A DNA stretch of 51,988 nt. Source: Oscillospiraceae bacterium. Lineage in GTDB: Bacteria > Bacillota > Clostridia > Oscillospirales > Ruminococcaceae. Below the pieces are notes generated by a model that was not told where the DNA came from, ran no database searches, and saw only the letters and a list, made by a program, of their open reading frames with translations. A program made the translations under genes and the position numbers. Shown piece by piece: positions 15,462 to 51,988 of this stretch (its first letter is position 1; every line of letters starts with the position of its first letter). The stretch lies in assembly GCA_017415165.1 (NCBI GenBank), contig JAFQIY010000063.1:1-51988 (forward strand), given 5' to 3'.

Positions 15462-15980
15462 ATGGCAAAGTTCCGCTTTACAATGGACATTGAAGCAAAG
15501 GATATCCCGAATCTTGATGACGCTCACAAGCGTGACTGTGCTGATATCCTGACTTCAATCATCAATCGCACATTCAAGCACACGCTGATTTTTTCACTTG
15601 TAGTGATTGCATTTTTCGCACTGTATCTGATGTTTGATTTAGTATACTGTATGCGTATGAATGAAAGACTTCCTCAGCTTCCGTTTGCACTGCCGTTTTT
15701 GTGCGGTGCAGCTTTTTTCACTGAGTTTGTTGCGGGGACTATGAACAGACCTGCAATTATCATTGTTGTGTTGTTATGCTGCGGACTGATATTGGTTTCG
15801 CTGAGCAGTATGCCGTGTGTATGGATTATTCCTGCGGCTTTGTATGTAATAGTTTTAAATCTCAGAATGCTTACGCTTTTTCCTGTTTACAAGGCGATTT
15901 CCGCCGAGCCCGGATACCCTGAATTCACTCCGCTTCCTACAAAAGAGGAAGTTGCTGCAAATAAAAAGAATGACATATAA
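15462..15980 (+). CDS. Polytopic membrane protein of unknown function
   Basis: The 172-residue protein has four predicted membrane helices (about 44-66, 77-92, 96-113 and 117-140), with charged cytosolic ends at both termini. I see no known domain. The ATG follows GGAGAGATATT, and the gene starts 11 bases after the preceding membrane protein, so the two are probably translated together. A terminator hairpin follows directly at 15987. Confidence 0.75.
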   Translation: MAKFRFTMDIEAKDIPNLDDAHKRDCADILTSIINRTFKHTLIFSLVVIAFFALYLMFDLVYCMRMNERLPQLPFALPFLCGAAFFTEFVAGTMNRPAIIIVVLLCCGLILVSLSSMPCVWIIPAALYVIVLNLRMLTLFPVYKAISAEPGYPEFTPLPTKEEVAANKKNDI

Positions 15981-15986
15981 AGCAAA

Positions 15987-16012
15987 ACCGTACCAAAGGA
16001 AATTGGTACGGT
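15987..16012. terminator. Terminator hairpin, left copy of a duplicated terminator
   Basis: ACCGTACCAA (15987-15996) pairs with TTGGTACGGT (16003-16012) around AGGAAA. The normal T-run is missing here because the repeat element begins at 16013. The same hairpin with its T-run occurs again at 16187-16212. Confidence 0.85.
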
Positions 16013-16185
16013 GAGCCTGTCGATAAAGTCGACAGGCTAATGAAAAATGAATAGAGAATAATGAATAGTGAATAGTTAAGGTGTCCGCTTTGCGGACATT
16101 TTTAATATTATTGCCGAAGGCAATTCCTTAATTATTCATTATTCAATATTCACTATTCATTGTCGAAAAATTTTTTCGACAAACT
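16013..16185. mobile_element. 173-bp non-coding inverted element, heptamer family A (complete copy)
   Basis: It begins with a 10-bp stem hairpin AGCCTGTCGA/TCGACAGGCT and ends with TGTCGAAAAA/TTTTTCGACA. Between them lie inverted arms of degenerate heptamers. The left arm (16049-16076) reads GAATAGA, GAATAAT, GAATAGT, GAATAGT, then TAAGG. The right arm is CCTTA followed by four inverted units. The core has two hairpins: TGTCCGC/GCGGACA followed by TTTTT, and TTGCC/GGCAA. It is flanked by a 27-bp direct repeat (15986-16012 and 16186-16212) that contains a whole terminator. A partial second copy is at 51847. Confidence 0.85.
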
Positions 16186-16186
16186 A

Positions 16187-16212
16187 ACCGTACCAAAGGA
16201 AATTGGTACGGT
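16187..16212. terminator. Terminator hairpin, right copy of a duplicated terminator
   Basis: Identical to the hairpin at 15987-16012 and followed on the plus strand by TATCTTTTTTT. It overlaps the stop codon of the minus-strand gene by one base and can act for both convergent genes. Confidence 0.85.
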
Positions 16213-16955
16213 TATCTTTTTTTACGTTTATCAGGCGGCTGATACCTGTCTTTCAGCTTATGGGGGTAATTGACATTCTTGGCAATTTCAAGCATTTCCT
16301 TACGGAAGCGTGCACGCCGCTGTTCACGCTCACGAACCTTTGCCGAGCAATGAAGAATGTGTCGGACAATTCTTTCGCCGTGGGTATAGAAATCGGTAAT
16401 TTCTATGCTTGCAACGTCCTTTCCGCCGTTGGAGTCGTACCACCAGCGGTCAAAAGCAATTCCCTCGTCCGTTCTGGAATATCCAAGCCAGCTTGAATCT
16501 TCGTTAAAATAGCGGGCAGGTGTACTCAGTGAAATGTGATTTCGCACACATTCGACATTTTTAACCTCCGAAAGCTTCACAACCCACATCTTTTTGTAAT
16601 GCACCCATTTCCAGTCACGGAAAACCGTTCGGCAGTGCTGTGAAACAATCATAACCGAGTCGGCAATCTGAATGTATGTATGCTCACGGTGGGCACGGAT
16701 AAGAATATCTTCAAGGATTGAACCTATCAGGCATACTATAAAAGCATAGGCAACTGACACATAAGCAAGATATACAATCGTCCTGTACATCTGCTGCGGA
16801 AGCTCTGTCCTGAGCTTCACAACAAATAACAATACAATGATAAGCAGTGAGATAAGTATGCTCAGTGCAGGCAGGGCAGCAAGAAAAATACGTCTGTTGT
16901 ACTTTGCGGCAAGACGCTTTTCGTTTACCCTTATCATTTTATGCAATTGCCGCAC
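16212..16955 (-). CDS. Two-helix membrane protein, PH-like
   Basis: The 247-residue protein has two membrane helices (about 24-47 and 60-84) after a basic cytosolic N terminus. The remaining cytosolic part is beta-rich (YIQIADSVMIVSQHC, WVVKLSEVKNVECV, ASIEITDFY) in the manner of bacterial PH-like domains, followed by a very basic tail ending DKRKKR. Function unknown. The start is uncertain: a GTG at 16955 has no spaced ribosome site, whereas a TTG at 16946 lies 7 bases after GGGGGTG. It begins 10 bases after the upstream gene and is co-transcribed with it. Confidence 0.7.
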   Translation of the reverse strand: MRQLHKMIRVNEKRLAAKYNRRIFLAALPALSILISLLIIVLLFVVKLRTELPQQMYRTIVYLAYVSVAYAFIVCLIGSILEDILIRAHREHTYIQIADSVMIVSQHCRTVFRDWKWVHYKKMWVVKLSEVKNVECVRNHISLSTPARYFNEDSSWLGYSRTDEGIAFDRWWYDSNGGKDVASIEITDFYTHGERIVRHILHCSAKVREREQRRARFRKEMLEIAKNVNYPHKLKDRYQPPDKRKKR

Positions 16956-29497: not shown

Positions 29498-30424
29498 ATG
29501 GATATCTGCTTTCACATTCCCGACTTCACATATCATATGCACCTTAATTCCCTGCTGATTAACACAATCCGCAAAAAGCCTGAATATTTCCACGACGGAC
29601 TGAAAATTGCGTCCGTTTTCGGCAATTTCTACGGCAGCGTATGGAACGGCGGACGCTATCTCGGCGGTATCACTGACCCGAATATGCTCCCTGCTGTAAC
29701 AAAGGCACTGAACGACAAGGGTATCCCTATGCGATTTACCTTTACAAATCCGCTTATTACTGAGGAACACCTTGATGATGTTTTCAGCAACGCTATTCTC
29801 CGTGTTGCACACAATGGTCTGAACGAGGTTATCGTAGTATCTCCGATACTTGAAGAATACATCCGTGAGAAGTACCCGAAATACAAAATCACTTCCTCCA
29901 CCTGCAAGGAAATCCGTGACATTGAGGGTGTCAAGGCTGAGCTTAAAAAGGACTATAAGTACGTTGTCCTCGACTACAATTTCAACAATCAGTTTGACAA
30001 GCTTGAACAGATTGACGAGTCTGACCGTTCACGCTGTGAAATTCTCGTTAATGCCTGCTGTACGCCTAACTGCCCACGCAGAGGTGAACACTACCGCACA
30101 ATCGGTCAGGACCAGATTGACGAATGGGAGTTCAAGCAGACAGGAAAAGACCCCCGCACCTACGCATCCAAGGAATTCAAGTGCCCGTCAATGCTGCTTA
30201 ATCTTTACGATACCGTGGAATTTTCCACACACATTTCGCCGCAGGCTATCTTTGAAAAGTACCTGCCTATGGGCTTCAACAACTTCAAGATTGAGGGACG
30301 TACAATGCCTGACCTTAACCTGCTCGAAACTTATATTTACTATATGGTCAAGCCTGAGTATCAGAATAAAGTGCGCTTAAAGATGGCACTTGCACTTACA
30401 AAGCGTCACAAATATTTTATCTGA
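29498..30424 (+). CDS. U32-peptidase-like TIM-barrel protein, second of a tandem pair
   Basis: A 308-residue paralogue of the preceding protein with the same landmarks: MDICFHIPDF start, VWNGGRYLGG, RFTFTNPLI, ITSSTCKEIRDIEGVKAELKKDYKYVVLDYNFNNQFD, VNACCTPNCPRRGEHYRTIGQDQI and FKIEGRT. Conservation of the Cys motif in both copies suggests both are functional. Its codon use is more biased towards the highly expressed set than the first copy, whose third positions are more AT-rich, so this copy may be the more strongly expressed one. The ATG follows GGAGGAACACT. It ends at a bidirectional terminator. Confidence 0.65.
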   Translation: MDICFHIPDFTYHMHLNSLLINTIRKKPEYFHDGLKIASVFGNFYGSVWNGGRYLGGITDPNMLPAVTKALNDKGIPMRFTFTNPLITEEHLDDVFSNAILRVAHNGLNEVIVVSPILEEYIREKYPKYKITSSTCKEIRDIEGVKAELKKDYKYVVLDYNFNNQFDKLEQIDESDRSRCEILVNACCTPNCPRRGEHYRTIGQDQIDEWEFKQTGKDPRTYASKEFKCPSMLLNLYDTVEFSTHISPQAIFEKYLPMGFNNFKIEGRTMPDLNLLETYIYYMVKPEYQNKVRLKMALALTKRHKYFI

Positions 30425-41956: not shown

Positions 41957-42216
41957 CAAACAAAAGCCGCCTCCACAGAGTTATCCCTATGAAGGCGGCA
42001 TCATACATTTACCACGGTTCCACTTCAATTCGGAGCAATATTTTGAGTGCTCCCTCTATGCCCTGTAACGTGAGCACACGCAGACGGATACTGTGACTTC
42101 CCCGTCCGAACTGACAGCCGCACTTCACAAACCATCCGCTGTATCGTCGCACCGACCCGATACTCTCTGAAAGCTTCATAGTAAGCTACTCTGACTGCTA
42201 CGTCTTTCCGATATTA
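41957..42216 (-). promoter_or_regulatory. T-box riboswitch, tRNA-Cys type, in front of cysE
   Basis: On the minus strand the leader has an AGAGAG...GGTGCGA stem I region and a candidate specifier TGC (Cys) at 42120-42122 in a GTGAAG-TGC context. The conserved T-box GAAGTGGAACCGTGG is at 42012-42026. A terminator GCCGCCT/AGGCGGC (41966-41999) with TTTTGTTTG follows, and the antiterminator would use the T-box bases. Uncharged tRNA-Cys should stabilise the antiterminator and turn cysE on. The specifier position is read from context and not from a covariance model. Confidence 0.9.
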
Positions 42217-51824: not shown

Positions 51825-51846
51825 AGGGGCACTGAGAGGTGTCCCT
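51825..51846 (+). terminator. Terminator stem followed directly by a repeat element
   Basis: AGGGGCAC (51825-51832) pairs with GTGTCCCT (51839-51846) with one G-T pair. The expected T-run is absent because the family A element begins at the next base, as at 16012/16013. Confidence 0.75.
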
Positions 51847-51988
51847 GAGCCTGTCGATAAAGTCGACAGGCTAATGAAAAATGAATAATGAATAAAGAAT
51901 AATGAATAGTTAAGGTGTCCGCTTTGCGGACATTTTTAATATTATTGCCGAAGGCAATTCCTTAATTATTCATTCTTCATTATTCAAT
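51847..51988. mobile_element. Heptamer family A element, partial copy cut by the window end
   Basis: It starts GAGCCTGTCGATAAAG exactly as the copy at 16013 and is nearly identical through both core hairpins to CCTTAATTATTCATT. The variable heptamers of the left arm differ: GAATAAT, GAATAAA, GAATAAT, GAATAGT. The right end lies outside the window. Confidence 0.85.

Follow-up and report, generated by a model that had tools for sequence, protein, structure and literature searches.

The window, by which we mean the whole 51,988-nt stretch of DNA that was analysed, is the entire contig C63 of a 2.62-Mb, 75-contig assembly. It contains a 173-bp non-coding element on the plus strand (16013-16185), a probable MITE of an IS1182-family clade, which is flanked by two copies of a 27-bp terminator stem-loop (15986-16012 and 16186-16212, neither assigned to a strand). 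Both hairpin copies have the sequence AACCGTACCAAAGGAAATTGGTACGGT, with 0 mismatches. The left copy has an A-rich upstream side and is followed directly by GAGCC rather than by a T-run, whereas the right copy is followed by TATCTTTTTTT, and the T-run of the original terminator lies behind it at 16217-16223 on the plus strand. The element itself, all of it described on the plus strand, opens with a left end hairpin (AGCCTGTCGA-TAAAG-TCGACAGGCT, 16014-16038) and closes with a right end hairpin (TTGTCGAAAAA/TTTTTCGACAA, 16160-16182). Between them runs a long AT-rich internal stem, whose 36-nt 5' arm (16046-16081) is 89% complementary to its 3' arm (16126-16161) and which bears a terminator-like hairpin, TGTCCGC/GCGGACA, followed by TTTTT (16082-16103). 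The fold of 15980-16220 is far more stable than that of its own shuffles (z = -14.5), and no listed ORF of at least 100 aa overlaps 16013-16185. A sequence-only reading of this DNA had described a gene-less 173-bp element between identical 27-bp stems, a left stem that lacks and a right stem that keeps the T-run, and an inner stem at 16082-16098 followed by TTTTT; its coordinates are exact and the description holds throughout. Elsewhere on the same 51,988-nt contig there is a T-box leader on the minus strand (41988-42209; Rfam RF00230, 101.4 bits).

A second copy of the element begins, as had also been reported, immediately after an unrelated stem at 51825-51846 (strand not assigned) and occupies 51847-51988 on the plus strand, where it ends together with the contig. 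The earlier reading predicted a second hairpin and a T-run beyond 51988 and, because contig C63 stops at that position, the prediction was checked on contig C54, the end of which carries AGGGACACTGAAAGGTGTCCCT followed by TTTT (the hairpin lying at 29991-30010 on the minus strand). This right hairpin differs from the left copy at 51825-51846 by 2 substitutions, and the remaining part of the element on the C54 end matches the variant seen at 51847.

Copies, rejoined contig ends and empty sites

The assembly was searched with the full-length element, with each of its ends and with its right half, and copies were located at no fewer than 50 places. At 35 of them a single contig spans both flanks; the others are half-copies cut by contig ends, 8 left and 7 right. 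The 50 places represent at least 43 insertion sites in the genome, and further copies may exist. The hairpin sequence differs from site to site and at most sites is repeated on either side of the element; by score, the same stem-loop stands on both sides at 34 of the 43 sites found. Since contigs break within the element, each left half predicts a hairpin on another contig end, and all seven right halves at contig ends pair one-to-one with a left half by the same hairpin (C28-C4, C43-C15, C61 end-C11, C63-C54, C27-C51, C48-C61 start and C46-C7). For one left half, at C36:3, a partner was not found among the contig ends.

The strength of the flanking repeats was assessed in two ways. A strict, ungapped test was applied to the 28 copies that retain both ends of the element and have 40 bp or more of flank; 22 of these reached a flanking repeat score of at least 14, compared to 0/756 cross-copy controls. 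A gapped test gave scores of at least 16 at 27/35 places versus 1/1190 cross-site control pairs, with the threshold of 16 chosen after the controls had been seen; the top control values were 23 and 15.5, and 21/35 places score above 23. The one strong control pair may be caused by related GGGTACC-type terminators. A GGGTACC/GGTACCC-like stem with variable loops is common to several terminators of the genus (C72:5156, C45:70953, C39:283687, C11:198003 and C18:64134, and also in the sister species G011 and G017). Nine of the 43 sites were not scored as duplicated: two have diverged duplicated hairpins that were recognised by eye only (C48:23747 and C33:25301), four are truncated or unpartnered at one end (C33:35974, C45:79708, C36:8299 and C36:3), two have intact element ends and a hairpin on one side only (C41:14330 and C43:19356), and one is a truncated copy flanked by two different hairpins (C33:2473).

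In the 22 strict cases a mean of 5.05 T is found in the eight bases downstream of the right hairpin and a mean of 4.95 A in the eight upstream of the left one; it follows from these counts that a bidirectional terminator has been divided between a copy with the A-side and a copy with the T-run. Each of these copies probably still terminates transcription. A crude ORF caller, applied to the 33 copies with enough flank, gave convergent neighbouring genes for 18, tandem ones for 14 and divergent ones for 1, and flagged none inside an ORF. Relative to the dyad of the hairpin, the 22 strict duplications are centred exactly in 12 instances, at -1 in seven, at +1 in two and at -3 in one. Pairing by position in this set is 0.50-0.86 inside the duplication and 0.68 at the first position outside it, which is less sharp than in the autonomous set described below. 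Where the two hairpin copies have diverged (n=13), the right copy is better paired at six sites, worse at two and equal at five, too few for a claim.

Ten element sites were compared with sister species by means of their flanking DNA, and both flanks lie side by side in a sister at two of them. At the site of 15986-16212, both G017 and G011 have a single terminator hairpin and lack the element. At C41:97293 the element is missing from both sisters, each of which has a single hairpin: a related one in G017 (GGGACGGATATTATCCGCCCC) and a different one in G011. The comparison with empty sites that the sequence-only reading proposed thus gives a single hairpin without an element at both comparable sites. 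Flanks lying side by side in sisters were not found at the remaining 8/10 sites, which are therefore uninformative on the insertion event. Blocks that match the sisters often stop near the element (L096 at C33:24000-43300, L094 and L095), and the element sites there may be rearrangement points.

Probable relation to the IS1182 family

The ends of the element resemble those of IS1182-family insertion sequences. Of the 16 outermost bases on the left (GAGCCTGTCGATAAAG), 14 agree with IS1182 left ends (CAGCCTGTCGAAAAAG), and the reverse complement of the right end matches the IS1182 ends CAGTCTGTCGAAAAAG (L138, L171, L180 and L182) and CAGCTTGTCGAAAAAG (L125), also at 14/16; these are the best values over 76 IS loci, taken without a random control. 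Against the element of the sister species G012, the ends agree at 12-14 of 16 bases. The first base of the left end is G or T where IS1182 has C. No match to the IS1182 transposase (NF033551, E<=1e-5) was obtained in the element's own assembly (93% complete, 75 contigs); NF033551 is above cut-off in the sister species G012 and G010 and, across the order, 20 of 295 genomes have a match that exceeds the curated cut-off. An autonomous partner in the same genome is usual for a MITE without being necessary. Both proteins that were scanned (L138 and L125) contain Pfam PF13751, PF05598 and PF01609, and no sequence relatives of the transposase were detected in the PDB at E<=0.1. The element is short, gene-less and present in many copies, its terminal inverted repeats resemble those of an autonomous IS, and it has the same target and type of duplication, all of which characterise a MITE. 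It is most likely a MITE of an IS1182-family clade, moved by a transposase of that family in trans, a mover that the sequence-only reading did not name.

To characterise the autonomous elements, IS1182 loci were put through one boundary finder (n=128, being the best 80 of 509 genome-contig loci, 23 of 32 viral loci and 25 of 30 loci from the order; plasmid and phage searches had also yielded IS1182 relatives). Ten genus loci with NF033551 were left out of this boundary set. The ends were resolved as CAG...CTG at 76/128 loci, with 52/128 outside this filter, and some loci are the same site twice (e.g. L140/L173, L144/L196 and L248/L249). A flanking direct repeat scoring at least 14 is present at 66 of the 76 CAG...CTG loci, and 60 of these 66 are free of mismatches. 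Six loci outside the filter also have a flanking repeat, the longest being a 64-bp palindrome (L203). Within the filter there are 64 distinct repeats of 18-42 bp (median 26), and in 60 of them the dyad of the best stem is the exact centre of the repeat. Watson-Crick pairing is 0.75-0.95 within the repeat, 0.58 just outside and 0.52 in cross-pair controls, and the mean stem score is 10.9 for real repeats versus 4.6 for shuffled ones, with 231/1280 shuffles reaching the weakest real stem. Repeat length correlates with stem plus loop at 0.98, a value that is partly built in because the stem was sought inside the duplication. Identity among the repeats is 0.29 versus 0.25 for shuffles; 49/64 start with A and 52/64 end with T. 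In G257, a two-contig genome, the same hairpin was judged by eye to be on both sides of four of five copies. L313, also in G257, has a different hairpin on each side, and a reciprocal of it was not seen among the five copies.

Ten CAG-type loci are without a repeat. L165, L173/L140 (apparently one site), L174, L191 and L245 have a different hairpin on each side; L209, L212 and L216 reach a contig end, and L260 shows neither. The copies between different hairpins, i.e. those just named together with L313 and the MITE copy at C33:2473, could have arisen by attack on two neighbouring hairpins or by later rearrangement. The same procedure found no whole-hairpin duplication at IS1182 copies with GGGGCTGT-like or GCGCTGT-like ends (e.g. 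L142, L146, L147, L149, L161 and L162). On a tree of 91 IS1182 proteins the duplicators are not separated from the rest, and the label needs 24 changes; nothing is built on this tree, because many rows labelled 'other' only had unresolved ends, and very long branches suggest that some ORFs were wrongly picked.

The branch with GCGCTGTTGACAAA-like ends was examined at five loci that retain both flanks. At L142 the copy lies inside a hairpin, with 12 paired bases on each side and a 5-bp direct repeat (AAAAT) between. L146 has six paired bases around a 5-bp repeat, a level that one of 20 cross-pair controls also reaches at best; L162 is a weaker case, and L149 and L161 have no direct repeat. Insertion of the L142 type, in which the loop alone would be duplicated, is offered as a lead that comes from one clear case of five. 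Such a loop-only duplication would equal pathway c of the Wan 2017 model (PMC5678879).

Proposed mechanism of insertion and rival explanations

In the MITE and in the autonomous clade alike, what is duplicated is the palindrome, irrespective of how long it is or which sequence it has. The middle of the duplication falls exactly on the dyad in 60/64 autonomous repeats and within one base of it in 21/22 MITE duplications, and that duplication length is set by the structure of the target is well supported. That insertion is aimed at terminator hairpins and duplicates them whole, as first read from the window, is upheld by the genome copies, the rejoined contig ends, the two empty sites and the autonomous IS1182-family elements of other genera. 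The opposite outcomes were not seen: far from lying mostly away from terminators without duplications, copies are duplicated at 34/43 sites, and a hairpin does stand to the right of the 51847 copy (AGGGACACTGAAAGGTGTCCCT TTTT on C54). We regard it as very probable that an IS1182-family clade, with a transposase that uses intrinsic-terminator hairpins as its target and leaves them duplicated whole, gave rise to the element as a MITE.

In the mechanism proposed, a DDE transposase with a predicted Tn5-like fold would read the palindrome as an extruded cruciform, that is as a four-way junction. The structure recognised would be one of DNA, not of RNA. Each 3' end of the element would be joined to the 5' foot of one of two opposed hairpins, after which gap repair by the host would copy the hairpin onto both sides. 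The feet of a cruciform stay close at any stem length, which would explain why duplication length varies with the hairpin instead of keeping to a fixed stagger. The left copy would retain the A-rich upstream side and the right copy the downstream T-run, so termination in both directions should persist. The earlier suggestion that the element repairs the damage it causes requires no special function, since ordinary gap repair of a staggered cut suffices to give two hairpins. Because a hairpin copy is left on each side, the insertions look harmless, and because terminators are doubled and split into an A-run and a T-run copy, gene ends would offer a safe harbour in which the element multiplies without harm to termination. 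With slightly better than even confidence, we propose more broadly a DDE clade in which the length of the duplication is set by the secondary structure of the target and not by the protein, which reads a four-way junction, copies hairpins of 18-64 bp whole and uses gene ends as a safe harbour, and of which a sister branch may duplicate the loop only.

The same element and the same hairpin duplication could also arise if a transposase dimer read a twofold-symmetric linear duplex, or if the substrate were a hairpin in single-stranded DNA, either at a replication fork or within an R-loop where a transcript terminates. Palindromes are readable as symmetric duplex DNA, the frequent A at the start and T at the end of the repeats indicate some base preference, and terminators are actively transcribed. 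Against a linear duplex, the identity among the repeats is barely above that of shuffles, arms and loops vary widely, and a range of 18-64 bp is hard for a fixed complex to accommodate, whereas a single-stranded hairpin cut at both feet would presumably be lost, not doubled. Some route of this kind is conceivable, and we hold it to be rather unlikely. It is improbable that the element is moved by some other transposase and that its IS1182-like ends are coincidental: its own assembly does lack an IS1182 transposase match and the first base of its left end does differ from IS1182 (G or T for C), but both ends match IS1182 at up to 14/16 positions, and the choice of target and type of duplication are those of IS1182 elements of the same order.

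Two further readings were weighed. In one, the locus was never mobile and old tandem terminators trapped a repeat by recombination, as the minority of copies between different hairpins or with one hairpin might indicate; the same hairpin on both sides at 34/43 unrelated sites, and the single hairpin at two sister sites, make this very improbable. In the other, the element was retro-inserted downstream of a terminator stem. Such an origin is favoured by the example of group IIC introns, whose insertion points lie immediately 3' of stems of this kind, but here the hairpin is duplicated (27 bp), the element has inverted-repeat ends, and the sole Rfam match at gathering score on contig C63 is the T-box leader elsewhere. 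A group IIC intron, which has a group II ribozyme and inserts without duplicating its target, was rejected on the 27-bp duplication and on the lack of an Rfam match at gathering score at the element, and the reading is scarcely credible. A number of other candidates were also discarded. Chance is ruled out by the controls of both tests (0/756 strict; 1/1190 gapped), an element that bears its own terminator pair by hairpins that differ between sites, and long duplications of the IS1634 type by duplications that follow the palindrome. Short matches in relatives were not accepted as copies, as they mostly cover the AT-rich inner stem and belong to a wider repeat class with other ends. This AT-rich class (AATGAATAATGAATA ... 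TATTCATTATTCATT), with inner hairpins and other end hairpins, is found in other genomes of the order (L044, L050, L052/L068, L058, L060 and L069); at L058, L060 and L069 the loop seems to hold a copy of one arm of the neighbouring terminator.

Comparison with known systems

Short, strongly folded non-coding repeats are known as RUP, BOX, QMITE and the terminator-like SPRITE, several of them proposed to be moved in trans by insertion sequences, and the accessible text of these sources describes no family with terminator-hairpin targets and whole-hairpin duplication (PMC10969869, PMC3049150). Within the IS1182 family, all sites of ISCbo5 except one are hairpin-forming inverted repeats at gene ends, read as transcription stops (Skarin 2011, PMC3098183); in the part of that paper available, hairpin duplication is not stated and no MITE is described, whereas both are present here. 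The staphylococcal elements IS1272 and TnSha1, of the same family, use hairpin targets of differing sequence, several of which are terminators (Furi 2016, PMC4923244; Wan 2017, PMC5678879). In Wan 2017 (PMC5678879) a cruciform intermediate was proposed and hairpin replacement was observed for IS1272, with whole-hairpin duplication figuring only as a possible alternative (Fig 13, pathway b). IS1272 partly deletes or replaces its target hairpin and makes no target duplication in that account, whereas at 16013-16185 the stem-loop is retained and doubled, and hairpin replacement of the IS1272 type was rejected for it. The literature searched, with the main IS reviews and ISfinder outside its scope and some sources available only in part, yielded no description of an IS1182 MITE or of an observed whole-hairpin duplication. 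On these sources, hairpin targeting by IS1182 elements is already published, and whole-hairpin duplication was found in print only as a hypothetical pathway.

The length of a target duplication is normally fixed by the transposase. CRISPR Cas1-Cas2 likewise attacks a palindromic repeat at its two ends, one on each strand, and repair then copies the repeat in full; that system has a fixed repeat sequence and a molecular ruler, whereas the hairpins here are unrelated and span 18-64 bp. The insertions could serve as a genomic mark of cruciform extrusion in vivo and could help to map terminators, and they suggest a possible safe-site insertion tool for gene ends that needs no guide RNA. Here, dozens of natural insertions are presented in which the duplication tracks the palindrome, an outcome that Wan 2017 (PMC5678879) draws as a possible branch only. 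Furthermore, a comparison of IS1272 with this clade could reveal how a single fold switches between the 5' and the 3' feet of a hairpin, and perhaps also its loop.
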